Positions 40,821-61,368 of a stretch of DNA of 64,000 nucleotides are shown here, piece after piece. The stretch's first letter is position 1; each line of letters begins with the position of its first letter. The notes below the pieces were generated by a model. It searched no databases. It saw only the letters and a list, made by a program, of their open reading frames with translations, and was not told the DNA's origin. The stretch covers positions 1 to 64,000 of the forward strand of contig JAUTCQ010000017.1 in assembly GCA_030673845.1 (NCBI GenBank). Reading direction: 5' to 3'. The translations under genes and the position numbers were made by a program. Source of the DNA: Verrucomicrobiota bacterium JB022. GTDB taxonomy: Bacteria > Verrucomicrobiota > Verrucomicrobiia > Opitutales > Oceanipulchritudinaceae.

Positions 40821-41396
40821 ATGTCTTTACATAATCGTCTCTTTGCCTGCCTCGGCGCTCTTCTGGCCTGTGGAGGTTCTTCTTTTGCGGCAGTGAACAT
40901 CGATATCACGGGGGGCAATGGCAGCCCGTTGGTCATTTATCTGCCTGCTATTTCCTACGAGATTACTGAAGCCAGGTCGTCCAACATCTTCCTTGCCTTC
41001 ACAGGGACAAATCTGACGCCATTTGGCGCAAGGACGCCTATCGGCGATGTTACGCTCTCGATCAATGGCGGTGAAGGCATCTCCTTCGTCTACGGCATCA
41101 GCAACTATAACGGGGTGGACATCGATCCGGGCGATCTTTATTTCTACACGGATCCGATGCCTCTTTCCGTAGGAGACATTGTCACGGTGTCGGCGGGCAC
41201 CTTGACCTTTTCCTCCAGTTACGCCGATCCGGCGCCAGGCAGTCTGTCTGTCGAATCCTTCATTGCCACCAGTAGCGTAAGACGGATCAGTAACGACGGC
41301 GTTCAAGCTCCTGTCGTGCCCGAGCCCTCGACCTATGCGGCCATCGCAGGCGCGCTGGGCCTGGCGTTCGTGGCGCTGCGCAGGCGCAAGGCGTAG
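40821..41396 (+). CDS. PEP-CTERM sorted exported protein
   Basis: The product has 191 residues. A signal peptide (FACLGALLACGGSSFA) is followed by a short strand-rich body, and ends in the PEP-CTERM tail: VPEPSTYAAIAGALGLAFVA and a basic LRRRKA. Such tails are recognised by exosortase, which cleaves and transfers the protein to the envelope or extracellular matrix. The body carries no motif I know. The last 20 codons, the stop and the terminator are nearly identical to those of the next gene at 41536, while the bodies differ. Confidence 0.9.
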   Translation: MSLHNRLFACLGALLACGGSSFAAVNIDITGGNGSPLVIYLPAISYEITEARSSNIFLAFTGTNLTPFGARTPIGDVTLSINGGEGISFVYGISNYNGVDIDPGDLYFYTDPMPLSVGDIVTVSAGTLTFSSSYADPAPGSLSVESFIATSSVRRISNDGVQAPVVPEPSTYAAIAGALGLAFVALRRRKA

Positions 41397-41419
41397 AGGG
41401 GCGCGACCCAACTTTCCCG

Positions 41420-41452
41420 AGCGGCGGTGGCGAAAGCTTCCGCCGCTTTTTT
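41420..41452 (+). terminator. Terminator of the first PEP-CTERM gene of the pair
   Basis: An 8-bp stem (AGCGGCGG / CCGCCGCT) is followed by six T. The same hairpin, with two changes in the loop, terminates the next gene. Confidence 0.85.
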
Positions 41453-41535
41453 GTGAAAATGGTCGTTTGTAAAAGAATCGCGGGCATTGCTTTACCACTC
41501 GCCAAGCGGGGGTCATTCCCTTAATCAGGCGCTCT

Positions 41536-42126
41536 ATGCTCTTCAAGTCAGCATCTCTGTTATTGGTTCTGGCGGCTTTGGCCGCTTCTGCGCAGGCTTC
41601 GATCAACCTGCTGTTTTCCGGTGGCGAGGGCTCGCCGCTGACGGTGACGCTCGCGACTGACGCGACGTTTGTGATCACTGAGACCCCCACGGATGTGGGC
41701 CCTGTTTTTATTCTCGATGGTTTTGCGGGCCTTCTGGCGGCTGGACTGCCGGACGGCATTACCGGCGGTTTCTCGGGGGGACTGTATTTTTCCGTCAATG
41801 AAAGCCTCCCGGTGATGATTAGTGATGTGGGTGCGGGGGGTCCCCCTGGTCAGTCTGTGGTGACAGACGACGATCTGTTCCTCGTGGGCGGTTTCGGTCC
41901 GCTCCAGTTGGGCGACGTGGTGACTCTCTTTGCGGGTTCCCTCACTACGAACAGCAACTTCGAGACGACTATTCCGGCGGATGGCACCTACAGCATGTTC
42001 CTCATCGACATTAACAGCAAGCCGATTGCGGGAGACCTGCCTGCCGTGCCCGAGCCCGCAACCTACGCCGCTATCGCTGGCGCGCTGGGCCTGGCCTTCG
42101 TGGCGCTGCGCCGGCGCAAGGCGTAG
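41536..42126 (+). CDS. PEP-CTERM sorted exported protein
   Basis: The product has 196 residues. Signal peptide (LLLVLAALAASAQA), then a Gly/Leu-rich beta body starting INLLFSGGEGSPLTVTLATD, which is similar to the N-terminal part of the preceding protein (ITGGNGSPLVIYL), so the two are paralogues throughout, with faster change in the middle. The tail is VPEPATYAAIAGALGLAFVA followed by LRRRKA. The family is unknown apart from the sorting tail. A terminator and then a bidirectional hairpin follow. Confidence 0.9.
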   Translation: MLFKSASLLLVLAALAASAQASINLLFSGGEGSPLTVTLATDATFVITETPTDVGPVFILDGFAGLLAAGLPDGITGGFSGGLYFSVNESLPVMISDVGAGGPPGQSVVTDDDLFLVGGFGPLQLGDVVTLFAGSLTTNSNFETTIPADGTYSMFLIDINSKPIAGDLPAVPEPATYAAIAGALGLAFVALRRRKA

Positions 42127-43023: not shown

Positions 43024-44013
43024 TTAGCTCGCGTAGCCGTTGGGGTGGCTTTGGTGCCACTGCCAGGCGGTGGCGATGATGGGTTCGATCTCCATGAACT
43101 TCGGAGTCCAGCCCAGCTCGTTCTTCGCCTTGGAGGAATCGGCGTAGAGGGCGGGGGGATCGCCTGCGCGGCGGTCGCCCGTCACATAGGGTACCTTGAG
43201 CCCGCTGACCTTCTCCACCGCGTTGATGATTTCGAGCACGGAGGTCGGGTTGCCGGTGCCGAGGTTGTAAAAGAGGCCGGTGCCGGGGGTGCCCAGCTTG
43301 TCGAAGGCGGCGATGTGGGCGCGGCTGAGGTCGTCGACATGCACGTAGTCGCGCAGGCAGGTGCCGTCGGGCGTCGGGTAATCGGTGCCGAAAACGGTGA
43401 GTTTGTCGCGCTTGCCCTGGGCGGCGTAGATCGCGAGGGGGATGAGGTGCGATTCGGGCGTGTGGTCTTCACCGATCTTGGCGTCTTCGGAGGCTCCCGC
43501 GGCGTTGAAGTAGCGGAAGGCGGCGAAGCTGAGGCCGTAGGCGTGCGCGCAGGCCTTGAGGGTGTTCTCGAAGTCGAGCTTGGTCTGGCCGTAGGGGTTG
43601 ATCGGGCGCTGCGGCAGATCTTCGGTGATGGGCATCTTTTCCGGGATGCCGAAGGTGGCGCAGGTGGAGCTGAAGACGAACTTGTTGACGCCCGCGTTGC
43701 GCATCGCCTGGAGGAGGCGGATGGGGGCGGCGAGGTTGTTTTCGTAATATTTCAGCGGCTCGTGGACGGATTCGCCGACGTAGGCGAAGGCCGCGAAGTG
43801 CATCACGATCTCGATCTGCTCGTCGCGCAGGATGCGCTCGACCAGCGGGATATCGCCGAGGTTGCCATCGTAGAAGGCCACGTCTTCGGAGACTGCCTGA
43901 CGGTGCCCGTAGACGAGGTTGTCGAGCACCACGGGGCGATGCCCGGCAGCCTGGAGTTGACGCACACAATGGCTACCAATGTAGCCCGCACCACCGATCA
44001 CGAGAACGTTCAT
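43024..44013 (-). CDS. galE: UDP-glucose 4-epimerase
   Basis: The NAD-dependent short-chain epimerase interconverts UDP-glucose and UDP-galactose for surface glycans. The 329 residues have the Rossmann start VLVIGGAGYIGSHCVRQL, DNLVYGHRQAVSEDV, the catalytic Ser-Thr in FSSTCATFG, the YxxxK motif in NPYGQTKLDFE, and FRYFNAAGAS. The C-terminal part has GTCLRDYVHVDDLSRAHIAA, typical of GalE. Related UDP-GlcNAc epimerases cannot be excluded. Confidence 0.94.
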   Translation of the reverse strand: MNVLVIGGAGYIGSHCVRQLQAAGHRPVVLDNLVYGHRQAVSEDVAFYDGNLGDIPLVERILRDEQIEIVMHFAAFAYVGESVHEPLKYYENNLAAPIRLLQAMRNAGVNKFVFSSTCATFGIPEKMPITEDLPQRPINPYGQTKLDFENTLKACAHAYGLSFAAFRYFNAAGASEDAKIGEDHTPESHLIPLAIYAAQGKRDKLTVFGTDYPTPDGTCLRDYVHVDDLSRAHIAAFDKLGTPGTGLFYNLGTGNPTSVLEIINAVEKVSGLKVPYVTGDRRAGDPPALYADSSKAKNELGWTPKFMEIEPIIATAWQWHQSHPNGYAS

Positions 44014-44334: not shown

Positions 44335-44652
44335 ATGTCTACTACGTTGCACAGTATCGACCATATCCGCGAGCAGGCCGAGGCGATTCTCGACCGCTAT
44401 GGCGCCCGCGATGTTTTGCCCGAAGCGGCCCTCGTGCTCGCCTGGCAGATCGTGTTCGAGCGCCTCCAGCGCGGCGACGATCAGGATTTCGACAAGCTCA
44501 TCGTCTCGCTGCAGCGCCTCTGCGCCACCACCACCCAGCGCCGCACCCTCCAGCTCAAGGAAGCCCAAAGCGGCCCCGCCGACGACGAGCCGTCCACGGA
44601 AGGACTCACGCCCGATGTGCTGCGGCAAATCGAGGCGGCGCTGGGAGCCTAA
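44335..44652 (+). CDS. Small protein at the head of the phage module
   Basis: The product has 105 residues from the ATG at 44335; an upstream start at 44065 would cover the structured region and is rejected. It is helical: IDHIREQAEAILDRYGARDV, then LVLAWQIVFERLQRGDDQDF and LIVSLQRLCATTTQRRTLQL. The position before terminase matches the small terminase/gp27-type gene of Mu-like phages, but sequence identity could not be recognised. It may be a DNA-recognition or packaging accessory protein. A family B repeat separates it from the terminase gene. Confidence 0.6.
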   Translation: MSTTLHSIDHIREQAEAILDRYGARDVLPEAALVLAWQIVFERLQRGDDQDFDKLIVSLQRLCATTTQRRTLQLKEAQSGPADDEPSTEGLTPDVLRQIEAALGA

Positions 44653-44657
44653 AAATA

Positions 44658-44760
44658 TGAACAGGAGTTTGGGGAGTTAGAGCGTTAAAACGGTGAGTTT
44701 ATCTCCTTTCTCTTCTGCTTCTGAACTCCTGAAACTCCTCCAACTCCTGTTCCAATTCAT
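44658..44760. repeat. Interspersed inverted repeat, family B
   Basis: The left arm is GAACAGGAGTTTGGGGAGTT and the right arm GAAACTCCTCCAACTCCTGT then TCC. They pair imperfectly. The element fills the gap between stop and start. A second copy occurs at 47438-47564. Confidence 0.6.
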
Positions 44761-44768
44761 TCCTTTTC

Positions 44769-46124
44769 ATGTTCTTACCGTATCAACGCCGCTGGATCGA
44801 AGACCCGGCCCCGCTGAAGCTGATGGAGAAATCCCGGCAGGTGGGGATGTCGTGGGCCACTGCTTACCGGCTGGTGTCGCGGCTCAGCCAACCCGGAACG
44901 CGTTACGATGCGTGGGTGAGCAGCCGCGATGCCGTGCAGGCCCGCTTGTTTCTGGAAGACTGCCTCGGCTTTGGGCGGGGGCTCGATGCGGCGGCCCGTT
45001 CGTTGGGCGGGCGGGTGCTCGGCAAGCGCAGCTCGCGGCAGACGTTGCAGCTGGCCAACGGGTGCCGCATCCACTGCCTCAGCTCCAACCCCGATGCGCA
45101 GGCCGGCAAGCGCGGCACGCGGGTGCTCGACGAGTTCGCCCTGCACCCCGATCCGGAGCGGCTCTACCGGATCGCTTACCCGGGGGTGACCTGGGGCGGC
45201 GGTCTGGAGCTGATCTCGACCCACCGGGGCAGCGCCAACTTCTTCCACCAACTGGTGAAGGAGGCGCGCGAGGGCGGCAACCCCAAGGGCTTTTCGCTGC
45301 ACCGCGTGACTTTGCAGGACGCCGTCGATCAGGGCCTGCTCGACCGCCTGCAACCACGCCTGCCCGACGACGACCCGCGCAAGCACCTCGCGCCCGACGA
45401 CTACCTCGACTACGTCCGCGCCCGCTGCCCGGACGAGGAGAGCTGGCTGCAGGAGTATTGCTGCGTGCCGGCGGAGGACGCGGCGGCCTTCCTCTCGTTC
45501 AGCGATCTCGTGGCCTGCGAGGTGCCGGGGCTCTTGCAGCCCTCGCTCAAGGACCCGGCGACGAGCGCCTTTGCCGAGCCGCCGCGCTCCCTGTATGTGG
45601 GCGTCGATGTGGGCCGGGTGCACGACCGCACCGTCATCTGGGCGCTGGAGCCAATCGGCGACTTGTGGGTGACGCGCCATGTCGAGGTGTTGGCGGGCGA
45701 GACGTTTTCGCGCCAGGAGCAGGTGCTCGACGCGCTGTTGCGCCGCCCGGAATTCCGCCGGTGCTGCATCGACGCGACGGGCCTCGGGCGGCAATTCGCC
45801 GAGCGTGCGTCCGAACGCTACGGGCGCTACCGGGTCGAGGGCCTGCAGCTGAGCCTGCCCGTGCAGGAAACGCTGGCCTACCCGCTGCGGAGCGCCCTAG
45901 AAGAGCGCCGCCTGCGTATCCCCGAAGACGACGCCACCCGCGCCGACCTCCGAGCCGTGCGCCAGGAGCAGACCAGCACCGGCCACCCCCGCTTTGTCGC
46001 CCGTCGCGATTCCAGCGGCCACAGCGACCGCTTCTGGGCCCTCGCCCTGGCCCTGCACGCAGCCACCGGCGGCGAACGCCACTCGCCGGAGGTGCATGTC
46101 ATCCGTCCCAAGGGGCGGAAGTGA
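44769..46124 (+). CDS. Phage terminase large subunit (Mu gp28-like)
   Basis: The packaging motor has 451 residues. The N-terminal ATPase has Walker A LMEKSRQVGMSWATAY (about residue 18-33) and Walker B RGTRVLDEFALHPDP. The C-terminal RNase-H-like nuclease has YVGVDVGRVHDRT with its first acidic residues, CCIDATGLGRQFAE, and the final acidic DRFWALALAL. Mu gp28 has a similar size and both domains. All expected catalytic parts are present, so the enzyme is probably functional. The start is the ATG at 44769. Confidence 0.9.
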   Translation: MFLPYQRRWIEDPAPLKLMEKSRQVGMSWATAYRLVSRLSQPGTRYDAWVSSRDAVQARLFLEDCLGFGRGLDAAARSLGGRVLGKRSSRQTLQLANGCRIHCLSSNPDAQAGKRGTRVLDEFALHPDPERLYRIAYPGVTWGGGLELISTHRGSANFFHQLVKEAREGGNPKGFSLHRVTLQDAVDQGLLDRLQPRLPDDDPRKHLAPDDYLDYVRARCPDEESWLQEYCCVPAEDAAAFLSFSDLVACEVPGLLQPSLKDPATSAFAEPPRSLYVGVDVGRVHDRTVIWALEPIGDLWVTRHVEVLAGETFSRQEQVLDALLRRPEFRRCCIDATGLGRQFAERASERYGRYRVEGLQLSLPVQETLAYPLRSALEERRLRIPEDDATRADLRAVRQEQTSTGHPRFVARRDSSGHSDRFWALALALHAATGGERHSPEVHVIRPKGRK

Positions 46125-46132
46125 GGCTAAAC

Positions 46133-46221
46133 GGGTTCTCTCACTAAGGTCACAAAGGCACAAAGGAGCGATTAGGTTTTTTTTAAGCATCTTGGTGTCT
46201 TTGTGTCCTTCGTGAGAGCCC
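46133..46221. repeat. Interspersed inverted repeat, family A
   Basis: The left arm GGGTTCTCTCACTAAGGTCA continues CAAAGGCACAAAG and is matched by the right arm CTTGGTGTCTTTGTGTCCTT then CGTGAGAGCC. The hairpin would be about 30 bp with mismatches. It fills the terminase-portal gap. Confidence 0.75.
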
Positions 46222-46245
46222 TCTTTCCCCATCCATTTCCTTTTT

Positions 46246-47439
46246 ATGAAAACAACCACTCTTTCTTCGACGCGCTGGCGGGAGGCCCAGCAGCGGACGC
46301 GTTTCAACCCCGTGCGGCAGCTCTCGCCGGAGAGCCTGGGCCGGCAACTGGATGCCTTCCACGCCGGGGACCTTCGGGCGGCGGCGCTGACCTGGGAGGC
46401 GATCGAGCGCCGCGACGACGTGGTGCAATCGGTGGCGGCCAAGCGCAAGGCTGCGGCAGCCCGCCACGGTTGGGAAATCCTCACAACCGAGGACTCGCCG
46501 ACCGCGCGACGCCACCAGGAGGCGTTGACCGCGTTTTATCGTCACGTGACCGCGATGAACGCCCTCGATGAGAACGAACGCGGCGGGTTTTCCCTGCTCG
46601 TGCGTCAGATGCTTGACTCGATTGGCAAACGTTACGCGGTGCACGAAATCGTCTGGCGGCCCTTGAGCGACGGCACCCTCACGGCGGAGTTCCGCTTTGT
46701 GCCGCTCTGGTTTTTCGAGAACCGCACGGGCCGCTTGCGCTTCCTGGAGCAGGAATTCGCGCAAGAGGGACGGGCGCTGGAGGACGACGGCTGGATGGTC
46801 ACCGTCGGGCCGGGTGTGATGGAGGCCTGCAGCATCGCCTACCTCTACAAGACGCTGCCCCTGCGCGACTGGCTGGTCTACTGCGAGCGCAACGGCATGC
46901 CGGGCATCAAGGGCACGACCGATGCGCCTCCCGGTTCGCCGGAGTGGGAGGCGGCGCGCGAGGCGGTCGAGAGCTTTGGCGCGGAGTTCCACGCCTTGAT
47001 GGGGCGCGGCACCGAGCTGGAGGCGATCCACCTGGAGGCGAGCGGGCAACTGCCTTACCCGCAGTTGGTCGAGCGCATGGACCGGGCGATGGTCGTGCTC
47101 TGGCGCGGCGCCGACCTGGGCACGATCAGCCGGGGCGCCGGGGTGGGGGCCAGCCTGCAGCAGGAGGAGTCCGACTTGCTGGCCGAGAGCGACGCCCAAC
47201 TGGTTTCCGAAGCCCTGCAAACGCAGGTCAACCGGCCCTTGCTGCGCCACCTCTTCGGCGAAGAGCCGCGCGCGGTGATCGAAGTTCGTGCTGGCCGCAC
47301 AACCCAGCCCGAGCGCGACCTGCAGGTCTACCGCCTCGCCTGGGAAATGGGCATCCCGCTCAGCGAACACGACTTCCGCGAACGCTTCCACCTCGCCGAG
47401 CCGACGGAGGAATCGGCGATGATCGGAGGGAATGGCTGA
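46246..47439 (+). CDS. Phage portal protein, DUF935/Mu gp29-like
   Basis: The product has 397 residues. It is a portal by family resemblance: RRDDVVQSVAAKRKAAAARH, the central LRDWLVYCERNGMPGIKG, and the repeat-rich VLWRGADLGTISRGAGVGAS with LLAESDAQLVSEALQTQVNR, typical of DUF935. The length is shorter than the roughly 500 residues of Mu gp29. The start is the ATG at 46246. The ring would sit at the capsid vertex where terminase docks. Confidence 0.88.
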   Translation: MKTTTLSSTRWREAQQRTRFNPVRQLSPESLGRQLDAFHAGDLRAAALTWEAIERRDDVVQSVAAKRKAAAARHGWEILTTEDSPTARRHQEALTAFYRHVTAMNALDENERGGFSLLVRQMLDSIGKRYAVHEIVWRPLSDGTLTAEFRFVPLWFFENRTGRLRFLEQEFAQEGRALEDDGWMVTVGPGVMEACSIAYLYKTLPLRDWLVYCERNGMPGIKGTTDAPPGSPEWEAAREAVESFGAEFHALMGRGTELEAIHLEASGQLPYPQLVERMDRAMVVLWRGADLGTISRGAGVGASLQQEESDLLAESDAQLVSEALQTQVNRPLLRHLFGEEPRAVIEVRAGRTTQPERDLQVYRLAWEMGIPLSEHDFRERFHLAEPTEESAMIGGNG

Positions 47440-47564
47440 ACAGGAGTTTGGGGAGTCAGGAGAGGAAGATTTTTTACAGAAGAGCACAAAGGACACGAAG
47501 AAGAGGATCCTAAATTTCTCTTTGGATCTGGGACTCCTTCAACTCACCTAACTCCTGTTCCAAT
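47438..47564. repeat. Family B inverted repeat with a nested half-copy of family A
   Basis: The left arm GAACAGGAGTTTGGGGAGTC starts at the portal stop; the right arm AACTCACCTAACTCCTGTTC ends at 47560. Between them, GAGCACAAAGGACACGAAG resembles one arm of family A, as though one repeat had inserted in another. Confidence 0.6.
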
Positions 47565-47583
47565 CATCTTTATTATTTTTCCT

Positions 47584-48357
47584 ATGAACAGTGAACATCA
47601 GAATACCTTTGAGCGCTATAAGCTGGTGAGCTTTGGCGAGCATGGACACCGCAAAGGGGTCCAGCGGATCGACCGTGGGGCCGGGGAGGCTTTGGTGGCG
47701 GCGTTCTATTCGCTCAAGGGGCGGATGGCGCGGCGATTCGGGGGCCTGCCGGTCTATGTCGGCCACCCCGACGATGCCGAATTTTCCGGGCGGGCCGGTC
47801 ACGACGATACCCGCGCGCACGGCTGGGTCCAGGGCCTCGAAGTGGCCGACGACGGGCTTTTCGTGCGCATCAAGTGGGCCCGCAGCGGTCGCGAGCTGCT
47901 GGCGGAGGCGCATTACAAATACCTTTCGCCCCGCTGGCTGATGGAGCCGGTCGAGAGCGGCGTTTTTCGCCCCGTGCGGCTGCTCTCGGTGGGGCTGACG
48001 AATGCGCCCAACATCCCCGGCGAACCCATCGCGAACGCCGCACCGCAAGACGAGGGCAGCGTGGCCGGGGTGGGGGAGACGCAGGCCCTGCCGCCGGCGT
48101 CGCCCGATTGGCAATGCGAAGCCGAAGAGGCGCAGCAGCGCATCGCCGAACTTGAGGCCCGCCTCGCCCGCTTTGAAGTCCCCGCGGCCAACACCGAGCG
48201 CCGCCCGCTCAAGACTGCTGCGCTGACCGCCCAGCTCGGGCAGCGCAAGCCCGCGCAAAGCGAGTCCCGCCAGCTCCTTGAAGCCGTCAACAGCCGCATG
48301 GCCGAGACGGGCGAGGATTTCCCGACCGCCTGGAGCGCACTGCGCCACCGCGGCTAA
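47584..48357 (+). CDS. Head maturation protease/scaffold, Mu gpI-like
   Basis: The product has 257 residues. It resembles Mu protease I: GLPVYVGHPDDAEF near residue 55, the helix KWARSGRELLAEAHYKYLSP, and LLSVGLTNAPNIPGEP, with Ala/Glu-rich C-terminus (residues 170-255) suited to a scaffold. The catalytic residues cannot be assigned with certainty. It lies between portal and capsid genes, the place of head proteases. Confidence 0.82.
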   Translation: MNSEHQNTFERYKLVSFGEHGHRKGVQRIDRGAGEALVAAFYSLKGRMARRFGGLPVYVGHPDDAEFSGRAGHDDTRAHGWVQGLEVADDGLFVRIKWARSGRELLAEAHYKYLSPRWLMEPVESGVFRPVRLLSVGLTNAPNIPGEPIANAAPQDEGSVAGVGETQALPPASPDWQCEAEEAQQRIAELEARLARFEVPAANTERRPLKTAALTAQLGQRKPAQSESRQLLEAVNSRMAETGEDFPTAWSALRHRG

Positions 48358-48401
48358 CGCACCTTTCCAACCCACACCTTACATCCAAATCCAACATACA
48401 C

Positions 48402-48827
48402 ATGTCTCAGTCTTCCAACCTGGTTTTTGCCAATACGGTCGGCGAATTTGCCGCCGGTGAGATCACTCGCTTTTCGACGGGCGCGCTTAGTGCGCGCAAC
48501 CGTCTCGTGAAGCCCGGCGCCCAGCCCCGCACGGTGGCGCTCTGCGAGGCCAACGACCTCCCGCTCGGTGTTTCGCAAGACGATGCCGACCTTGCGGGCG
48601 ACGCCGTCAACGTGACGCTGCTCGGCTCGGCTGGCCGCACCCTGCGCGCCGTCGCCTCGGGTAACGTGGCCGAGGGCGCGCTGCTCGTCCCGGCGGCCGG
48701 TGGCGCCGTGCGCACCCTGCCCGGCACGTCCGGCACCTACCACATCGTCGGCCGCGCGCTGCAAGCGGCTTCGGCGGGCCAACTGGTCTGCTTCGACCCC
48801 TGCTTCCCGCAGACCCGCACCGTCTAA
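48402..48827 (+). CDS. Capsid decoration-like protein (DUF2190-type)
   Basis: The product has 141 residues, with an all-beta pattern. GVSQDDADLAGDAVNVTLLG, a GNVAEGALLVPAAGG segment and the closing LQAASAGQLVCFDP are the kind seen in DUF2190 and other capsid cement proteins. It lies directly before the major capsid gene, separated by 36 bases. Identification is by pattern. Confidence 0.72.
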   Translation: MSQSSNLVFANTVGEFAAGEITRFSTGALSARNRLVKPGAQPRTVALCEANDLPLGVSQDDADLAGDAVNVTLLGSAGRTLRAVASGNVAEGALLVPAAGGAVRTLPGTSGTYHIVGRALQAASAGQLVCFDPCFPQTRTV

Positions 48828-48863
48828 ACCTAACACCTACCCACCACTTTTCCACTTACACAC

Positions 48864-49799
48864 ATGACTGCGATTGAATCCCTGCCCGTGAAGGGCACCA
48901 TTACCGCCGCCAACGAGAGCCGCTTCCAGCACGCCCACCTCAGCGAGCCGCTGACCGCCTATTCCATGGGCTGGAAAGACCCGCACAACCTGCAGGCGCT
49001 GCTCGATTTCCTGGCTCCGGCCGTGCCGGTGGCCCGCCGCTTCGAGTTCCGCAAATCCACCGCCGCCGACTTCTACTACTCGGAAGATGACGACGTGCGC
49101 GCGATCGGCGCCAACTTCAAGCGCGTCGGCTACTCGGGCGAGACGGTCCAGAGCAAGACGCTCAACAAGGGCCTGACGATCCGTGTCGACCACGACGAGG
49201 AAGTCGGCCCCGACTGGCGCGAACGCTACGTGGGGCTGCTCGTACAGCGCCTCTTGCGCAATGAGCTGCGCCGCGCGCTGAAGGCGATGGACAACGCCAC
49301 GATCGCGAGCCCGCAGGCTTGGGGCGCGAATGCCAACCCCGATGGCGACCTCCGGGCCGAGTTGTTCCAAGGCACGCTGGGCACCGGCCTGCGCCCCAAC
49401 CGCATCCTCTACGGCCCCGTGGCCTGGGACTTGCGCCAAAACGTCTACGATCAGCAAGACAACGCGGCGGCCGCGCGAGCCGGCGGCCTCTCGCCCGAAG
49501 AGCTGGCGCGCAAGGTCTTCGTCGACGAGCTGCGTCTCATGTCGCCGTATTTCCACGACGGCCAGGAGCTGCAGGCGATGGTGGAGCACTCCATCTACCT
49601 GTTCTACGGGCAGAACGGCATCCACCGCGACGAGCCGAGCACGCTCAAGCGCTTCTACACGCCCACCGACGACGGTAACGCCTTCCGCGTCTACGTGGAG
49701 GAGCACGCCAAATACACCGACATCAGCGTCGAGCACTATTCGCAAGTGGTGCTGACCAACCCGGATGGCCTCTGCCGCATGACGGTAAGCGGTGCGTAA
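48864..49799 (+). CDS. Major capsid protein (HK97-fold, Mu gpT-like)
   Basis: The product has 311 residues, near the size of Mu gpT (about 305). Signs are the FEFRKSTAADFYYSEDDDVR segment, LKAMDNATIASPQAWG, and RILYGPVAWDLRQNVYDQQD, which resemble coat proteins of this class. No cleavage site was assigned. It has the strongest codon bias of the module to the eye, in keeping with abundant expression. Confidence 0.85.
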   Translation: MTAIESLPVKGTITAANESRFQHAHLSEPLTAYSMGWKDPHNLQALLDFLAPAVPVARRFEFRKSTAADFYYSEDDDVRAIGANFKRVGYSGETVQSKTLNKGLTIRVDHDEEVGPDWRERYVGLLVQRLLRNELRRALKAMDNATIASPQAWGANANPDGDLRAELFQGTLGTGLRPNRILYGPVAWDLRQNVYDQQDNAAAARAGGLSPEELARKVFVDELRLMSPYFHDGQELQAMVEHSIYLFYGQNGIHRDEPSTLKRFYTPTDDGNAFRVYVEEHAKYTDISVEHYSQVVLTNPDGLCRMTVSGA

Positions 49800-49849
49800 A
49801 CCCAACCCTCCCGGCGCGGCCGTGAAATACGACCGCGTTTTGGGGATAC

Positions 49850-49970
49850 GGGTTCTCTCACTAGATCACAAAGGCACAAAGGGTTAAATCCCTAGCTCTA
49901 AGAGGGTTGCGTGGGATGGAGAGAGCTCGGCCCTCACCCTTTGTGTCTTTGTGCCCTCCGTGAGAGCCCT
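49850..49970. repeat. Interspersed inverted repeat, family A (long-loop copy)
   Basis: The left arm GGTTCTCTCACTAGATCACA continues AAGGCACAAAGGG; the right arm CCCTTTGTGTCTTTGTGCCC continues TCCGTGAGAGCCC. Between them is a nested hairpin-like stretch. It ends 34 bases before the next gene. Confidence 0.75.
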
Positions 49971-50004
49971 TCTTCCTCTCTTTCTTTCACCTTACGCTTT
50001 TCCC

Positions 50005-50454
50005 ATGTCCTGGAATCCTTTGACCTTAACCATTTTGCAGCGCTACCTGGCGGCCCCGCAGTTGCGAGCTTTGCAGACGGCGGCTCTAGCCGATGCGCAG
50101 GGCGATCCGTTGCCCGAACTCATCGCAGATGTCACCGCGCGCGTCCGGGCCGAGCTGCGGGCGGGCGGCAACAGGCTCAGCGCCGACCCGCAAGCCTTGC
50201 CGGCGGAGCTGCACGGCCCAGCGGCGGCCCTCGTGCTCGCCACCGCCCAAACGCGCTTGCCCACGCTGGAGCTGCGCCCCGACCAGGTGCGCGCTTACCA
50301 GGATGCGCGGGCCCTGCTGGAGCGTTTCGCCACCGGCAGGCTGCGACCGGAGGCGCCGGACGACCCGGAAACCGCTCCGGCGCCCACCTCCGGGCAGACG
50401 GTCGTCGTCTCCGCCCGTTCCGACCGGCTGACCGCGCGCCGCCTCCGCTTTTAG
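50005..50454 (+). CDS. Mu gp36-like (DUF1320-type) head-tail connector
   Basis: The product has 149 residues from the ATG at 50005. It has a helical N-terminus (LTILQRYLAAPQLRALQTAA) and a Leu/Ala/Arg pattern with TARVRAELRAGGNRLSADPQ, as in DUF1320 proteins that close the head for tail joining. The C-terminus is Pro/Thr-rich. The identity rests mainly on pattern and position. Confidence 0.7.
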   Translation: MSWNPLTLTILQRYLAAPQLRALQTAALADAQGDPLPELIADVTARVRAELRAGGNRLSADPQALPAELHGPAAALVLATAQTRLPTLELRPDQVRAYQDARALLERFATGRLRPEAPDDPETAPAPTSGQTVVVSARSDRLTARRLRF

Positions 50455-50475
50455 CCACCCCGAGCAACTACGACC

Positions 50476-50916
50476 ATGTCCGAATTTCCCGATCACCGCC
50501 TGGGCGAGTTTGCCTTGGCCTACTTGCGCACGCTGCCCGAGCTGCGGGGCGTGCACCTCTGGCTGGTCGACCCGGCCGACTTGGAGGGTGAGCTGCAGAC
50601 GCAGGCCGCCGAGGCGACGACGCTGGCGGTGCGCCTCGAAGGCCCCACTTACCTTACGGTCGATTTCTCCGGCGAGCGTCTGCTGGAGCTGACGGTGCGC
50701 TTGCGCGAAAGCCTCTGGCACGCCACGCCGCGCAACGCCCGAGGCCAGCTCGCCTCGCTGCTGGCCCAGCGCCTGCGCGTCTTTCAACCGCCCGGCGCGC
50801 CGGAGCCGATGCGGCCCCATCCCTTTACGCCGCGTGCCGTGCCGGAGCCCAAGGGCCCCTGGCGCGAAGAGGTGCTGCGCTACGTCGTGAGCCTCGGCTA
50901 CGCGGCCCACGAATAA
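50476..50916 (+). CDS. Small structural protein of the phage module
   Basis: The product has 146 residues, with ELRGVHLWLVDPADLEG, a strand-rich VRLEGPTYLTVDFSGERLLE, and a Pro-rich stretch before the end. It begins 21 bases after the gp36-like gene. The order suggests a gp37-type head or tail-completion protein, but no match was recognised. A joint role with the preceding gene is inferred. Confidence 0.6.
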   Translation: MSEFPDHRLGEFALAYLRTLPELRGVHLWLVDPADLEGELQTQAAEATTLAVRLEGPTYLTVDFSGERLLELTVRLRESLWHATPRNARGQLASLLAQRLRVFQPPGAPEPMRPHPFTPRAVPEPKGPWREEVLRYVVSLGYAAHE

Positions 50917-50936
50917 GCCTCAAACCATTTACCACC

Positions 50937-53021
50937 ATGCCTTTTTCCCGCCACCTCATCCGCCTGGCGCTCGACGCCAATTCGTTCGAGCCGCCCCTCG
51001 ATGCGCGCCGCAACGCCGTGCCCGCCTTCTGGAGCGGGCGCGACGTCAGCATCCAGTTCGGCCTTTTCGATCAAGGTCAGCTCATCGACTCCGGAGACCT
51101 CGCGAGCTTTACCTTTACGCTCAAGCGCCTCCCGCCCGACCGCTCGGTGCCGCATTGGGACGACCCGGTCTACCTCACGCGCACGGCGCTCGTCACCAGC
51201 AACGAAGTCACGCCCACCGAATGGACCAACGGCACCGACCAGCACCTCGTGCTCCACTTCACGGGCGACGAGACGCAACTTGAGCCCGGCACCTACTGGC
51301 TCAGCGCCACCTGCACGAGCAAAGACAATCCTTCGCGGCAAATCACGTTCGGGGCCGGTCCGCTGGAGGTGTTTAGCGATGGCTACGCGAGCGGCGGGGT
51401 CGCCCCCGTGTTGACCGGCATGGCCTACAGCAAAGCGGAAGCCGACGCGCGCTTCCTCACCCAGCTGCAGGCCGCTGTCGATTACATGCCCGCCGATCAG
51501 GACCTCTTGCCGTTGATCGACCCGACCGCGGCGCGCGCGGCCTTTGCCGTCCCTTCGCGGGAGGAGTGCCTGCAGCGGACCTCCGCCCAGCGGGGAGGTG
51601 CGCGCCTGGAGGCGGGCCAATACGTCGAAGGCCTGTCCAACGGCTTCAACTGGGGGGTGGGCAGCGGGACGGTTCGCCTTTGCCTCGCGCTCGATAACTG
51701 GCGCCCGGGGGCGGACAACGTGCTGTGGACCTCCCACCGGAGCGGCAACAACCGCTGGCGTTGGGAGATCGCGGCGACTGGCGACTGGCGCTTTGTGTGG
51801 ACGCTGGCCGACGGTAGCGAGCAGGTGGCGACCTTGCCCGACCCGGGCCTGATCGACGGCTCCATCTACGATCTGGTGCTGGTGGTGGAGCCTTCCGCAA
51901 GTATGGTCGTATACGTCGATGGAGCCGCGCGATTTACGGTCAGCCTGGCGGCCGTCGCCCCGGCCAATCTGGGCCATGGCAACAACGAGCCCAGCCAGGT
52001 GCTGCCGGGTGAAGGGCTGTCGGGTGAGCTCTACGACCAGCTACTGGTGCTCAACCATGCCTTGGGCGCGGCAGAGATCGCACGGCTGGCGCTGCGACCG
52101 GCGGGTTGGCACCTGCTGCGGACGGTGTCGGGGGCCAATCTGCTCAACAATGCCGACTTCACGGCGGGCGGTGCGGGGTGGGCCACTGTCGTTTCTTCGC
52201 CCGCCCAGCTCAGTTACCCGGCGGAAGGATTTTTGGGCTCCCCCAGCCTCAAGATCAACCGTTCCGCCGGTGGCGGCACGAATGCGCTGATCTACCAGAA
52301 CGTGAACCTCGCGATCTATGGCGGCAAAGCCCTGCGCTTTCACTTCCGCTATCGCACCGAGGGGACGGACGCCGTGGCGCTGTTGCTGCGGGAGGAGGGC
52401 GGCTCATTTACTCAGCTCGCTTCGGCCGACTTGCCGGTCAACGTGCCTTGGCGGCGGATGTCCTTGGATCTCACGGTGCCGACGTCCATCAGTTCGGCGT
52501 TGTTCGCATTTTACAGCACGGGCGTCTGGCGGCGTAACATCCTGTGGGCCGATGATATGCTGCTGACCGAGGTAGGCGTGACCATGCGGGTGGATCTCGC
52601 CTCGGGCGGCGCATCCCGGCTGCCCAGCAGCAACGGAAGCGATTGGGCCGTGCGGGGCGGTGAGCCGCAGCACCTGCAGCCCGCCTACCCCGGAGAGCGG
52701 CGCCGGGAGGCTACCTTTTGGAGAGCTGCAGACATCGGCACGGCGGCGGCCAGCAATTGGCTGACGACCTTGCGCCCCGGCTGGACGGTCGAAGAGGTGT
52801 GGCTGCAGGTGACGACTGCAGGCAGTGCCGGTGAGGCCGTGCAGCTCGGGACGGCGGCCAACCCGACCCGCTGGGGTGCTTATTCGCTGGCGGCGACGGG
52901 GTGGCAGCGCGCGGTGCCGACCGAGCCTTGGCCCGGGTTCCAAACCGAGGAGGCTTATCTGCGGCTCAACCAGGCGGGCACCTCGCAATTCCGCCTCTGG
53001 CTGCACCTGCGTGCCGGTTGA
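50937..53021 (+). CDS. Large fibre-like protein with LamG-type domain
   Basis: The product has 694 residues and no signal peptide. Residues 1-150 form an N-terminal strand-rich domain that starts RLALDANSFEPPLDARRNAV and contains VPAFWSGRDVSIQFGLFDQG. Near residue 163, YSKAEADARFLTQL resembles the trimerisation segment of tail fibres. Residues about 215-380 look like a concanavalin/LamG sandwich (SIYDLVLVVEPSASMVVYVD), followed by another carbohydrate-binding-like sandwich (GGKALRFHFRYRTEG). It is probably a receptor- or substrate-binding fibre on the particle. Confidence 0.75.
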   Translation: MPFSRHLIRLALDANSFEPPLDARRNAVPAFWSGRDVSIQFGLFDQGQLIDSGDLASFTFTLKRLPPDRSVPHWDDPVYLTRTALVTSNEVTPTEWTNGTDQHLVLHFTGDETQLEPGTYWLSATCTSKDNPSRQITFGAGPLEVFSDGYASGGVAPVLTGMAYSKAEADARFLTQLQAAVDYMPADQDLLPLIDPTAARAAFAVPSREECLQRTSAQRGGARLEAGQYVEGLSNGFNWGVGSGTVRLCLALDNWRPGADNVLWTSHRSGNNRWRWEIAATGDWRFVWTLADGSEQVATLPDPGLIDGSIYDLVLVVEPSASMVVYVDGAARFTVSLAAVAPANLGHGNNEPSQVLPGEGLSGELYDQLLVLNHALGAAEIARLALRPAGWHLLRTVSGANLLNNADFTAGGAGWATVVSSPAQLSYPAEGFLGSPSLKINRSAGGGTNALIYQNVNLAIYGGKALRFHFRYRTEGTDAVALLLREEGGSFTQLASADLPVNVPWRRMSLDLTVPTSISSALFAFYSTGVWRRNILWADDMLLTEVGVTMRVDLASGGASRLPSSNGSDWAVRGGEPQHLQPAYPGERRREATFWRAADIGTAAASNWLTTLRPGWTVEEVWLQVTTAGSAGEAVQLGTAANPTRWGAYSLAATGWQRAVPTEPWPGFQTEEAYLRLNQAGTSQFRLWLHLRAG

Positions 53022-53100
53022 GCGCCACGTTTGAGGCCCAACCTGCCGCAACCGGTGTATTTCGTTTGAAAACTGCCGGGATTGCGGCAGGCTGGTGCCT

Positions 53101-53877
53101 ATGTGGCAGCTCTTTTCCCGAACCTGGATCTGTGGCCTGTTGGCCCTGACGCTTCTGCCGCTGAACGCGGCGGCTCAACGCCTGTTGACCGACCTCGACG
53201 CCGTGCTGGCCAAGTACATCGAGGCCAACGGCGGGCAAAAGGAGATGGATGCCGTCCAGTCGCTCCGGGTGATCGGCAAGTATACGATGGAGGGTAAGAC
53301 CTTCGACCTCAACATCCTCAAGCGCCGCCCGGATCTGAAGGTCGTCTCGTATGCACAGGAAGGCGTCACGATTACGATCGGCTACGATGGGCAGCGCGTG
53401 TGGCGCCAGATCGACTCGCCCCAAGGCCGCCGGGTGGAGCCGATGGAAGGCCCCGAAGCCCAGGAATTCATTGGCGGGATCGACTTCGACGGGCCGCTGG
53501 TCGGCAAGCCCGGGGTGGGCGAGACCCGCAAGCTGCTGGAGCCCGAACGCATTGGCCGCGTCGACTATTACCGCATCGAGCTGACCAAGGCTGACGGCAA
53601 GCGCATCGTTTATTACATCGACTCGCGCACCATGCGGGAGGCCAAAAACCTCGAATACACCACTTCCGCCACGGGCGAGGAGACGGTGAAAGAGAATTTC
53701 CTCAGCGATTACGCACAATACGACGGCATCTGGCTGGCCCGAAAGATCGAGGCCGTGAGCGATGGCGAGCGCCAGTCGCTGCTCGAAGTGTCCAACGTGC
53801 AAATCAACCCGGGCATCATTCGCTCCTACTTCAGCATGCCGTCTCCCGCCGTGCGCAAGCCGGCTTCGGCCAAGTGA
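53101..53877 (+). CDS. LolA-like periplasmic outer-membrane lipoprotein-sorting family protein
   Basis: The product has 258 residues from the ATG at 53101. A signal peptide (TWICGLLALTLLPLNAAAQ) precedes a LolA/LppX-like half-barrel: YIEANGGQKEMDAVQSLRVI, LNILKRRPDLKVVSYAQEGV, GYDGQRVWRQID, and YYIDSRTMREAKNLEY. Such folds carry acyl chains of lipids or lipoproteins. It is 12 bases before the YdbH-like gene, so a shared operon and role in lipid transport are likely. The exact ligand is not known. Confidence 0.75.
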   Translation: MWQLFSRTWICGLLALTLLPLNAAAQRLLTDLDAVLAKYIEANGGQKEMDAVQSLRVIGKYTMEGKTFDLNILKRRPDLKVVSYAQEGVTITIGYDGQRVWRQIDSPQGRRVEPMEGPEAQEFIGGIDFDGPLVGKPGVGETRKLLEPERIGRVDYYRIELTKADGKRIVYYIDSRTMREAKNLEYTTSATGEETVKENFLSDYAQYDGIWLARKIEAVSDGERQSLLEVSNVQINPGIIRSYFSMPSPAVRKPASAK

Positions 53878-53889: not shown

Positions 53890-56800
53890 ATGGCGTCGGC
53901 TCCTCGCTCCTCGGTTTGGCGATTTTGGGTGCCTCTGGCCGCAGGGACGCTCGTGGGCGGAGCCTTGGCCGTCAACGCCATCCGGCAAGGCCTGCCCGGG
54001 TGGGTTGAAAACTGGCTGGAAGGCTGGGTCGCGCAAGACGTGGGCGGCCAGCTCGACCTCGAAGTCGCCTCTGCCAGCCTGTCGCACCTCGACGCCCCGC
54101 AGCTCAACTGGACCGGCCCCGGCTGGGAACTGCAGGGCGAGGGCGCGCAGGCGGATTATTTTTGGCTGCCCGGCCAGCCCTTCGCGCTGCAATACCTCGG
54201 CTTCGATTCGCTCACGCTGACGCTCGACCCGAGCCAGACGATTGCCTGGCCCGAGCCGGCCCGCCCCGCTACGACTGCGGCCGCGCTGCCGCCTCCGCGG
54301 GAGGTGCCGCTGGCCCCCCCTTTGCCGCAGGATGGCCCGCCGCCCGCCCCTCCGGTTGTCGCGCCTGTGGCTGAGACCAGGCCTCCGCCTGCTCCCACTG
54401 TCGAACCCGACCCCGTCGAGCTGCCGACTGCTCCCGTCGCGACGGCACCCGAGCCTTGGCCCGTGCCCGCAGTTCCGCCCCAATGGCTCCCACGTTGGGA
54501 CGGTGACGCGCTGGAGACGGTGCTGCAGGGCTTGTGGGATTTCCAGATCGGCGCGGTAACGGTGCCTCAGGGCGAGCTGCGGATCTTGCGGGGCGAGGAA
54601 GCGCCGTTGACCTGGCCGTGGCAGCTGCATTGGCAGGACGATGGCCGCGAGCTGACCGGAGCTTTCGAAGGGCAAGGCGCTTCTTTGGATTTGCACCTTG
54701 CGGTCGACGGCGTGCGCCCGGAATGGACCGAGTTGAGCCTGTCGCTCGATATGGCCGGGCGTGAAGCCTGGACGCCTTGGCTCGAAAGCTTCGCGGTGGA
54801 GGCCCCTGCCGGGCTCGAATGGGGTGGGGCGCAGGCGGAGGCTCTTTTCCGCGCCCGCCCGGGCGAAGCCCCGCACACCGCATTGCTGATCGAGGGGCAG
54901 AATTGGCGCTACGACGACGGAGAGGGCCTGACCGCCGGGCTGGAGCGCATCGTGCTCGCCGCCGAGGGCCACGACTGGGACGATCTGGAGGTGAATGGCG
55001 CCCTGCGTTCGCACGCCCTGAGCTTTGGCGACTGGCAGGTGGACCCCTTCGACGTGATCGTCAAATACCCCGCGCCGCGCTACCTCAAGGTGGAGGTGCC
55101 AAACCTCGTGGCCCGGCAAGGTGATGCGATCCACGCCCGGGCGGCCTTCCGCGCTTTTGTGCAAGCCCCGTGGAAGCATCCCCAGCCGCAGGCCGAGTGG
55201 GAGCTGGCGCTGCAGGAGGCCCACCTTTTAAGCGAGTCGCAGCCGCACAGTCTGGAGCCGTTTTCGATCTTTGGCAAAGCCATCGCCGGCGGCTGGAGCG
55301 TGCAGGCTTCGCCCATCTCCGTCGCGGAGTTTCCGGACTGGTCGCTGGCGGATATCGAGGGGGCCGTGCATACCTTTCGACAGGCCGCCGAGGTGAGCGC
55401 CGAGCTGCGTTCGCGCAACGTGCCACTGCTGAATCTGGCAGCGCAGGTCGACGGTTTGAGCCCGCTGGACGCGGTCGCCTGGCAGATCCGCTCGCCGGGC
55501 GAAGCTCCCGCCACCGACTTGGAAGGCACGGTCGATCTTTCTGGGGAGGCTCCGGTGGTGGCGTGGCAGGGCAAGCTGGCGGCGGGTCTGCTGGAGGCCG
55601 TGCGGGCCTTTTTGCCGAGCGACTGGGCCGATTTGCAGGCGCAGGGTTCGCTCGCCTTCGGCTCGTCGGAGCTGACGCTGGGCGAGCAGCCGACCGGCGT
55701 GGTGGAGCTGCGTCCGCAGTTGACGCAGCTCGGTAGCGCCGCGCAGGGCTGGCAACTCCGCGACCTGAACGGCACCTTGCGCTTGGCCAACCCCTACGGC
55801 TTTTGGCTGCCCCAGGGGCCGGAAACTCATTTGACGCTCGCCCGCGCCAGCTCTCCCGGCACGCCGGAGTGGGACCTGCGGGGCCTTTCGCTGAAGATGC
55901 CGACTGAGGCTCCGCACGCGCAGCTCCACGCGGTGATGCACGACGGCCTCACCGGTGCCCGCGCGCTGGACGTGCAGGCAGAGGCGGACTGGACGCAGGG
56001 CTATACGCTGCAATCGACGCTGCAGAGCTTCCCGCCCGCCGGGCAAAAACCGCTGGTGCTCAAGCTCGACGCGCGCGCCACCTTGTTGCCATTGGTCGAT
56101 CGCGTGACCCTGCAGGGTGGGGGGGCGCTTGGTTCGCTGGGCCCGCTCAAGGCGCTGCTCGGCCCGGCCTGGGCAGGCGTGCGCTTCGGCGGGCAGTTGG
56201 AGGTGTCGGGCGAAGCCGGGCGCGCCAACCTGCTCGATTACACCGGCCACGCGCGCCTGCAGATCCGTGACGGTTCGCTGACCTGGGCCGAGGGCCGCAC
56301 CACCACTGGGCTCAACACGACGGTGCAGCTCGTCTACCAAGGCAACCAGCTCCGCAGCGACGGCCCCCAGACGCTGACCATTGCCGAAGTGAAGCAGGGC
56401 GAAGAGGTGCTGAAAAACGTGAGCGTACGCTTCAACCTGACCGCCTACCCGCAGCTCGCGGTCGAAGAAGTGGTGGCCGAGTGGCGCGGCGGGCAAGTCA
56501 CGCTGGAGCCCTTCGTCTACGACTTCGCCAACCCGGTTTTCGAGACAACAGTGCACCTCAAGGGGGTGGAGGCGCAGCCGATCGTTACCCAGTTGATGGG
56601 TTCGGCACTGGAGTTCATTGCCCGCTCTGGCCAAGTCAAAGGTGCCATCTTGCCTCTGAGCGGCTACCTTCCTGTCCGGTATGACCATGGACGTTTGAGT
56701 GCGGACAAGGGGGAGTTATCATTAACGACTCCAAATCAGCCCTTGGTGCGCCTGACCGACCGCGAGTTGGCTGAAAAATACCTTAACCTGGGAGAGCAGG

Positions 56801-57075
56801 TGCCGCCTACCCTACGCCCGGCAGTGGTGAACGCCGCATTGAACGGACTTCAGGTCGAGTATTTTCGCGCACGCATGTTCGATCCCAAGACGCCGCTGCA
56901 GCCGCTCGTCCTTGAGCTCGGAGTAGCGGCAAGAACCAAGGAGCTTGAACTGGAAGGCGTGCACATCCGGATGCCAATCAACCTCTTTGGTGATCGCGAG
57001 CAAGGCCAGCATACATCGTTCGAACAGGCGCTATGGGCCGTGCTACACATCGGACTGCCTGCCCCACGAAGATGA
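53890..57075 (+). CDS. YdbH-like intermembrane phospholipid transport protein
   Basis: The product has 1061 residues, near E. coli YdbH (about 880) plus a Pro-rich insert (residues about 135-200). An N-terminal anchor (FWVPLAAGTLVGGALAV) is followed by a long series of beta strands. The C-terminal region has VYDFANPVFETTVHLKGVEA, ARSGQVKGAILPLSGYLPVR, and LAEKYLNLGEQVPPTLR, as in the YdbH C-terminal domain. AsmA-like proteins of this group (with YhdP and TamB) form hydrophobic grooves between membranes. The YnbE-like and YdbL-like genes follow, giving the same order as in E. coli. Confidence 0.82.
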   Translation: MASAPRSSVWRFWVPLAAGTLVGGALAVNAIRQGLPGWVENWLEGWVAQDVGGQLDLEVASASLSHLDAPQLNWTGPGWELQGEGAQADYFWLPGQPFALQYLGFDSLTLTLDPSQTIAWPEPARPATTAAALPPPREVPLAPPLPQDGPPPAPPVVAPVAETRPPPAPTVEPDPVELPTAPVATAPEPWPVPAVPPQWLPRWDGDALETVLQGLWDFQIGAVTVPQGELRILRGEEAPLTWPWQLHWQDDGRELTGAFEGQGASLDLHLAVDGVRPEWTELSLSLDMAGREAWTPWLESFAVEAPAGLEWGGAQAEALFRARPGEAPHTALLIEGQNWRYDDGEGLTAGLERIVLAAEGHDWDDLEVNGALRSHALSFGDWQVDPFDVIVKYPAPRYLKVEVPNLVARQGDAIHARAAFRAFVQAPWKHPQPQAEWELALQEAHLLSESQPHSLEPFSIFGKAIAGGWSVQASPISVAEFPDWSLADIEGAVHTFRQAAEVSAELRSRNVPLLNLAAQVDGLSPLDAVAWQIRSPGEAPATDLEGTVDLSGEAPVVAWQGKLAAGLLEAVRAFLPSDWADLQAQGSLAFGSSELTLGEQPTGVVELRPQLTQLGSAAQGWQLRDLNGTLRLANPYGFWLPQGPETHLTLARASSPGTPEWDLRGLSLKMPTEAPHAQLHAVMHDGLTGARALDVQAEADWTQGYTLQSTLQSFPPAGQKPLVLKLDARATLLPLVDRVTLQGGGALGSLGPLKALLGPAWAGVRFGGQLEVSGEAGRANLLDYTGHARLQIRDGSLTWAEGRTTTGLNTTVQLVYQGNQLRSDGPQTLTIAEVKQGEEVLKNVSVRFNLTAYPQLAVEEVVAEWRGGQVTLEPFVYDFANPVFETTVHLKGVEAQPIVTQLMGSALEFIARSGQVKGAILPLSGYLPVRYDHGRLSADKGELSLTTPNQPLVRLTDRELAEKYLNLGEQVPPTLRPAVVNAALNGLQVEYFRARMFDPKTPLQPLVLELGVAARTKELELEGVHIRMPINLFGDREQGQHTSFEQALWAVLHIGLPAPRR

Positions 57076-60729: not shown

Positions 60730-61368
60730 ATGAATTCTCGTCTCGTTGCGCTCCTGCCCATCCTCTGCACGGCAACCCTTTCTGCCTCGATTTCACTCGA
60801 GTTTTCCTTCACTGCCACCGCGTCCGGGGCCGATCCACTGGGCCTCGACGGGGCTACGTTTTCCTTTTTCGCCTCGTCCGACGATGAGGTCTATAGCGAC
60901 TTCGGCGGCTTTGCCTACCTGGAGTTCGACACCATCCAGCTCACGCTCTCCGGCAGCTCGATGTCGGACGGCACTTACTCGCTCACAGAGCTCAACAGCG
61001 GGCCGATCGGTGCCGTCCCCGATGCCGGCAGCGATACCTCCATTCTGTTGCTCGACAGCGGCGGCGGCCCCGTCGATTTCACCGTCGGCTCGTTCTTTGA
61101 GCTGCGCAACTTTTCGCCCTACAGCTCCGCTAGCGTCGGCGGCTTCGTCAACCCCGGCGACGCCGTCTTGCCAGAGCACTTCGACGGGCTGGTGGTCGAC
61201 GGCGCGGGCTTCCCCAGCTTCAACATCCGCACCCTGCCCGACCTCGGCTACTACAGCTACACCTACGCGCCCTTTACCGTCTCCGTCATCCCCGAGCCTG
61301 GGGTATATGGAGCCCTGGCCGGCCTGGGTGCCCTCGGCTTCGTAGCCTACCGCCGCAAGCGCGCCTAA
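60730..61368 (+). CDS. PEP-CTERM sorted exported protein, first of three
   Basis: The product has 212 residues. A short signal peptide (LVALLPILCTATLSA) opens it, and the body is strand-rich: ISLEFSFTATASGADPLGLD, ATFSFFASSDDEVYSDFGGF, IQLTLSGSSMSDGTYSL. The tail is VIPEPGVYGALAGLGALGFV then AYRRKRA, an exosortase substrate signature with PEPG. It is paralogous to the next two genes. Confidence 0.9.
   Translation: MNSRLVALLPILCTATLSASISLEFSFTATASGADPLGLDGATFSFFASSDDEVYSDFGGFAYLEFDTIQLTLSGSSMSDGTYSLTELNSGPIGAVPDAGSDTSILLLDSGGGPVDFTVGSFFELRNFSPYSSASVGGFVNPGDAVLPEHFDGLVVDGAGFPSFNIRTLPDLGYYSYTYAPFTVSVIPEPGVYGALAGLGALGFVAYRRKRA

Follow-up and report, generated by a model that had tools for sequence, protein, structure and literature searches.

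The window analysed here, a 64,000-nucleotide stretch of the genome of Verrucomicrobiota bacterium JB022 (G000:C17:1-64000; the whole assembly comprises 4.35 Mb in 25 contigs), carries at 44335-53021 nine intact, tightly packed open reading frames, all on the forward strand, which constitute a phage Mu-like head and packaging module with few recognisable tail genes.

Genes of the module

The first gene (44335-44652) is small-terminase-like by its position before the terminase large subunit (TerL) gene and by a weak match to Mu gp27 (PF11985, E 0.022). It belongs to a conserved family (c11) that holds the same place directly before TerL in relatives; it is recognised by a c11 hidden Markov model (HMM) built without this protein (9e-12), and the copy in the sister genome 5H is 73% identical. 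It is followed by TerL (44769-46124; PF17289, 3e-14; PHROG 5909, 1.2e-34), in which the columns that we take to be the ATPase and nuclease motifs are invariant in six aligned sequences, and by a Mu-type (DUF935) portal (46246-47439; PF06074, 7.5e-60), the only Mu-portal match in the source genome. Further downstream lie genes for a Mu gpI-like head maturation protease/scaffold (47584-48357; PF10123, 7.6e-15), a decoration/scaffold-like head protein (48402-48827; PHROG 673, 4.8e-16) and the major capsid protein (48864-49799; PHROG 1005, 5.9e-8). These frames and their matches to public profiles bear out the preliminary description of this DNA, which had reported intact head genes in Mu order. 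That description had also named a gp36-like head-tail adaptor; the gene is present (50005-50454, with the start chosen from the sister genome; the longest frame begins at 49951) and its product is similar in 5H (66% identity) and in six other loci (26-41%), while the profile match behind the name is weak (PF07030, E 0.029).

The eighth gene (50476-50916), left unnamed by sequence profiles, is predicted to be a tail terminator by its fold: its AlphaFold2 model (predicted local distance difference test, pLDDT, 81) matches the Mu terminator with Z 12.4 (3.4 Å over 128 residues), the pyocin collar with Z 12.3 and chain 6tba_4A of the Rhodobacter capsulatus gene transfer agent (RcGTA) with Z 12.2. 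We assigned this protein to family c5 from its position and an alignment with 10-22% identity, which also served as input to the fold model; the c5 family HMM itself gave no match to it. The last gene (50937-53021) encodes a fibre-like protein whose N-terminal ~170 residues are common to other loci and whose LamG match is weak and below the cut-off. Phage Mu arranges terminase, portal, protease, decoration/scaffold-like protein, capsid, gp36 and terminator in the order seen here; unlike Mu, the nine genes include no recognised gpF, sheath, tube, baseplate, transposase or repressor.

The palindromic repeats inside the module are located between genes. A host repeat lies between the first two genes (44654-44757), with a related copy at 47437-47564 and 17 further short matches across the host genome, some of which are the two strands of one place; a second intergenic type, CACAAAGG, occupies 46151-46228 and has related copies at 49867-49976. 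The repeats noticed earlier are real, and one type is scattered over the host genome.

HMMs of gpF-, gpG-, tube- and hub-like proteins from related phages found nothing in the 740 stop-to-stop frames of at least 45 amino acids in the whole 64 kb; in the same scan, the window's protein was among those used for the TerL, decoration, capsid, gp36 and fibre HMMs, and four further HMMs derive from a window protein alone, so that their matches only mark places. Likewise, the hub and tube profiles had no match anywhere in the source genome; tail genes in the adjacent genome would, according to the preliminary description, have refuted its view. The statement of that description that no tail gene is visible stands for relatives of gpF, gpG, tube and hub, but was slightly too strong in view of the terminator fold. 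No integrase, replication gene or regulator was recognised among the nine genes, the rest of the 64 kb being without a Pfam scan for integrases, transposases and lysins. A temperate Mu-like phage carries a tail tube, a tape measure and a baseplate hub, and the module does not contain this set. The Pfam tape-measure profile PF10145 gave no match over the cut-off under 18 genome handles; this is weak evidence, as the same profile misses the PHROG-recognised tape measure of a prophage in the source genome. That prophage (G000:C1:231000-250999; L112) is separate from the module and siphophage-like, and its 1125-residue protein (PHROG 21845, 1.4e-17) is the only tape measure seen in this genome, on a contig other than the module's. 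Its holin-like gene shares 72% identity with a second one close to the end of contig C6 (L111); the two were considered as relocated lysis genes of the module and rejected, being 29-35% identical to the module type.

Selection and vertical descent

The sister genome, Puniceicoccaceae bacterium 5H (G016, L014/L027), carries the nine genes in unchanged order and, downstream of them, the same LolA-like gene (53095-53877 in the window, plus strand) and the same 1061-residue open reading frame (53890-57075, plus strand). The upstream flank differs: the galE-like gene of the window (43024-44013, minus strand; Epimerase, 6e-56) is not there, and a holin-like gene (c13) and a small membrane-protein-like gene (c15) take its place. 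Between the two genomes, the ratio of nonsynonymous to synonymous divergence (dN/dS) is 0.09-0.37 over the nine genes (small-terminase-like 0.26, TerL 0.10, portal 0.09, protease 0.20, decoration-like 0.29, capsid 0.26, gp36 0.22, terminator 0.27, fibre 0.37), and 0.29 and 0.41 in the flanking host genes; the synonymous divergence (dS) of the module genes (0.59-1.12) is of the same order of magnitude as that of the flanks (1.02-1.05). Comparison of G014 with G015 gave dN/dS of 0.075-0.24 for eight genes, and eight further, partly overlapping pairs gave 0.025-0.167 for the capsid and 0.053-0.178 for the portal, values inflated in these further pairs by some automatic start codons that lie too early (e.g., TerL of L032/L035). 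The holin-like gene found upstream in relatives is similarly constrained (0.018-0.050 in four pairs). Moreover, none of the 98 capsid matches in the order contains an internal stop. The module is therefore under selection and not decayed, as the preliminary description had proposed.

A capsid profile search of one genome per species (84,980 species) returned 64 loci. Apart from one Kiritimatiellaeota metagenome-assembled genome (MAG), their record titles name Verrucomicrobiota or one of its subgroups, and the carriers include three named strains, Cerasicoccus frondis, C. maritimus and C. arenae. Within the order, 90 of 372 genomes have a capsid match, 40 of them being assemblies of 0.7-1.1 Mb that are 68-95% complete. 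Strong matches (at least 300 bits) occur in 79 of the 372, never two per genome, although most of these were counted by the capsid alone, without gene-by-gene inspection, and in at least one (G045) the capsid sits in a phage-type gene set (L126). Weaker extra copies (~200-280 bits) are present in some genomes, and the two inspected (L083, L085) lie in phage-type sets. Two families chosen because they are rich in matches carry the module almost throughout: 18 of 19 genomes in f17 (a single full-length strong copy in 17 of them, and in the other a fragment lying at the edge of a contig) and 9 of 10 in f21, one copy each. Absence from all relatives, which had been named as evidence against a maintained module, is thus not what we observe, though 282 of the 372 genomes of the order are without a match. 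TerL was matched in 34 of 37 carriers; in f17 it lies on another contig (e.g., G032, G176) or some kilobases from the module. Genomes were tracked by handles, and since G390/G082, G384/G054 and G391/G046 are pairs for the same genomes, handle counts may exceed genome counts.

The host surroundings of the module are also shared. In the window, 5H, L089 (in one genome with L125), L060, L029 and L113, a LolA-like gene, the downstream neighbour in several families, occurs within 10 kb after the capsid; families c20 and c17 follow the module in eight loci (in L036 they are LysM and purH genes), and galK-galE-UDPGP-type genes precede it in several. A galE-like gene beside the module is found both in the window and in several loci of another family (e.g., L036:4611-5600), either as a common site or by coincidence.

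RpoB was sought in 30 chosen carriers, and for the 27 that gave a usable protein the capsid plus portal tree has 19 of 24 splits in common with the RpoB tree, compared with a mean of 0.24 and a maximum of 4 in 2000 label shuffles. The module is thus inherited vertically, as a single copy at a host locus, and because of this codivergence domestication is by far the best reading.

These data bear directly on the view that the module is a decayed, functionless prophage remnant. An opinion of this kind has been published: a 2019 study of an Opitutales genome from shale describes a prophage on 'scaffold_15' as defective and degraded, listing no more than two Mu-like genes and a terminase (PMC6920513). 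This is probably the sister locus, because the L027 contig is titled 'Puniceicoccaceae bacterium 5H scaffold_15'. The largely missing tail and the lack of a recognised integration or replication gene among the nine would fit such a remnant, whereas dN/dS far below 1 for most genes, 98 stop-free capsids, congruence with RpoB and near-universal presence in f17 and f21 speak against it; we reject this reading, which we find hardly credible.

Related phages and reduction of the tail

Tailed phages or prophages of Verrucomicrobiota (L092, L076, L085, L101) encode capsids 39-55% identical to the window's, the same head genes and a small c6 protein. In addition, they have gpF/gpG-like genes and encode a tube-like protein of ~310-380 residues (named by eye, without profile support); a tape measure was recognised by profile in L092 only (PHROG 10093, 1.2e-10). 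The phage order, combined from L092 and L076, is adaptor, gpF/gpG-like, terminator, tube, c6, fibre, tape measure and hub, and the modules show the same succession without gpF/gpG, tube and tape measure. The hub family was seen in part in L076 and whole in L093 and L074; the retained 575-residue protein is predicted to fold as a baseplate hub (PVC hub 6j0m, Z 21.5, 3.5 Å over 311 residues; Mu gp44, Z 18.0). Sequence profiles of c5, c6, hub and tube gave no credible match in the PDB, Pfam gave no match common to more than one of 19 hub members, and one of 22 c6 members matches a PHROG 'tail protein' at E 0.005. Among 50,697 phage records, the capsid had no match at E 1e-3 and the portal a single 25% match, to a Rhodovulum phage present in two records.

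On a tree of 85 related capsids, the 59 rows without tube, gpF or gpG labels, a state that a short contig or a diverged phage could also produce, and the 26 phage-type rows require 6 state changes (22.4 with shuffled labels). Four unlabelled rows stand among phages (L071, L080 and L081, with <2.5 kb after the capsid, and L073), L093 sits at an unresolved fork, and the phage-type L092 groups with module rows L044, L088 and L089 (Shimodaira-Hasegawa-like approximate likelihood ratio test 85-91, not starred). This pattern suggests that the tail-poor modules likely had a single origin. A compact module in a Pedosphaera MAG (L074:5316-19977), with a tube-like gene, no recognised tape measure, gpF or gpG, and host-looking flanks, is perhaps an intermediate or a parallel domestication.

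The constant core across lineages is the packaging head, and what follows it varies. Loci of f17 and of the small-genome clades, where enough sequence is available, typically retain terminator, c6 and hub; the window, 5H, G014 and G015 retain adaptor, terminator and fibre; C. arenae (L087), L113, L029 and L060 retain adaptor and fibre; and L114 retains just the adaptor, after which come genes that by eye are of folate type. Both adaptor and fibre are missing after the capsid at the locus of C. frondis (L032), C. maritimus (L035), L129, L088 and L089, and in L032, L035 and L129 the next genes look, by eye, like those of host enzymes. Between the two Cerasicoccus species with no phage-like gene beyond the capsid, constraint is strong on the holin-like gene, portal and capsid (dN/dS 0.018, 0.053 and 0.039) and lesser on the decoration-like gene and c11 (0.41 and 0.47).

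Could the missing genes simply reside elsewhere, the module being part of tailed phages whose lineage codiverges with that of the hosts? The displaced TerL of f17 demonstrates that gene scattering happens. However, the hub was not found under any of 17 handles (14 distinct genomes, three of them reached by two handles) on the window's side, the control G051 being positive, and the related tube was not found in 34 of 39 genomes; the five positives are all from f17, never have it beside the module, and in four carry a weaker, prophage-type capsid on the same contig. We therefore consider a scattered phage very improbable.

A satellite that builds its own heads and borrows tails from resident prophages deserves similar scrutiny. 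Capsid-forming phage-inducible chromosomal islands (PICIs) encode head and packaging proteins and no tail, as does our module, and are mobile islands with an integrase and regulators. The module encodes head, packaging, adaptor and terminator proteins and no tube, and the source genome has a separate prophage with a tape measure (L112). Unlike PICIs, it is vertically inherited and neither an integrase nor a regulator was recognised among its nine genes (genes further out were only partly scanned). Moreover, its host neighbours are common to several lineages, its tree matches that of the hosts, and it persists in ten genomes of 0.8-1.1 Mb without a related tube gene (other kinds of tail were not searched for). 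The satellite option of the preliminary description is thus less favoured, given a single vertically inherited copy and no recognised mobility gene among the nine, and we judge it improbable.

Elsewhere in the window, three tandem homologous genes encode proteins of 549-570 residues (31705-36967), family c21 of small secreted-looking proteins occurs at 40821-42126 and 60730-62879, and no tRNA gene was found. In another, one-contig genome (G105:C1), four equal weak tape-measure matches start at 4487448 (L164), 4523168, 4558888 and 4594608, spaced by exactly 35,720 bases, possibly a tandem of four prophage copies or an assembly artefact.

Possible gene transfer or a DNA capsule

The head of RcGTA differs in type from that of Mu. 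Unlike RcGTA, the module has a portal of the Mu-type family, no tube or tape measure and a host in another phylum; besides the terminator fold, the two have in common vertically inherited, codiverging phage-derived head genes (Rhodogtaviriformidae; PMC9662315). In the same source, a gene transfer agent is defined by six features: proteins derived from Caudoviricetes; an endogenised genome, often in several loci; vertical inheritance with codiversification; particles with mostly random host DNA; incomplete packaging of its own genome; and delivery of DNA to other cells (PMC9662315). The first three, which are the sequence-based ones, are found in the module: its profiles and folds are those of Caudoviricete proteins, it is flanked by host genes with TerL on another contig in several f17 genomes, and it follows RpoB in 19 of 24 splits. 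The agents classified to date are those of alphaproteobacteria and of one spirochaete, and others have been reported in a deltaproteobacterium and a methanogen (PMC9662315); titles and abstracts among the matches listed describe none from the present group.

Parts for a maturable head and for DNA pumping are present and constrained, while those for replication, integration and a long tail were not found. A gene-transfer-agent-like particle whose neck is short or absent is the simplest reading. Overall, we postulate that the module probably is a gene-transfer-agent-like viriform of independent origin, i.e., a domesticated packaging head. The preliminary description had offered a domesticated capsid or such an agent among its options, and codivergence, dN/dS, stop-free capsids and the spread among relatives support it. 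An ancestor within Opitutales would have acquired a prophage whose head was of Mu type and whose tail had a tube and a tape measure. Its replication, mobility, gpF/gpG-like, tube and tape-measure genes would have been lost, terminase, portal, protease and capsid would have stayed, and adaptor, terminator, fibre, hub and holin-like genes would have stayed by lineage, the remainder becoming a host locus with vertical inheritance. In a subset of cells, the capsid may assemble on the portal, TerL may fill it with host DNA, the gp36-like adaptor and the terminator may close the neck, and the fibre may decorate the particle; lysis through the holin-like gene would free short-necked, DNA-filled heads that deliver DNA to kin upon attachment by the fibre and subsequent uptake.

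Several observations weigh against this reading. The module is patchy across the order, its strong form occurs in 5 of 17 genomes of the window's own family, and the lone f17 genome without it is a single contig, which indicates a true loss. A TerL match is missing in three of the 37 carriers (G184, G028, G021), and some of the others may belong to prophages in prophage-bearing genomes. Three of the carriers chosen for the RpoB comparison were dropped, and five splits conflict, four of which are either deep or poorly supported in one tree, the fifth being (G387,G388) versus (G116,G387), with G116 on a long branch. The dS of TerL, portal and capsid (0.59-0.63) is below that of the flanks, possibly through slower synonymous change or some later exchange between species, and in further pairs dN/dS reaches 0.73 for c11 and 0.60 for the decoration-like gene. 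The window locus is without the holin-like pair of 5H, and c13 was named holin-like by eye, no library naming that family. As the holin-like genes elsewhere in this genome are unlike the module type, release here must use other genes. At the locus of C. frondis and C. maritimus nothing phage-like follows the capsid, and an injecting particle in these species is doubtful unless neck genes lie elsewhere. Finally, the particles, their host DNA content, their release and the transfer of DNA are all predictions from the genes.

The variable loss of neck genes could also mean that the head does not serve transfer at all, but forms a DNA compartment or a phage-defence decoy in which capsid, portal or terminase proteins hinder infecting phages or sequester DNA. 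The constant core of packaging and capsid genes and the several lineages without neck, fibre or hub at the locus are in line with this; on the other hand, the conserved holin-like gene suggests release, and selection acts on fibre, terminator and hub in the lineages that have them, and we regard this alternative as rather unlikely. Within the gene-transfer-agent-like reading, we tentatively raise a more specific possibility, that selection keeps the DNA-packaging head and repeatedly discards the delivery apparatus. The result would be a DNA capsule without a tail that is released from the cell, a gene transfer agent consisting only of a head. Tube and tape measure might have been lost first, then, by lineage, hub, terminator and fibre, and in the two Cerasicoccus species perhaps every neck gene at the locus; the cargo might be taken up by the recipient's own machinery or serve another purpose.

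If the gene-transfer-agent-like reading is true, it would represent an independent domestication in Verrucomicrobiota, ancient enough to track host phylogeny across families, with most of the tail gone, and a particle locus kept even in assemblies of ~1 Mb. It would open the question of whether a phage-derived particle can serve DNA transfer without an injection tube, for which C. frondis, C. maritimus and C. arenae are candidate cultured carriers.

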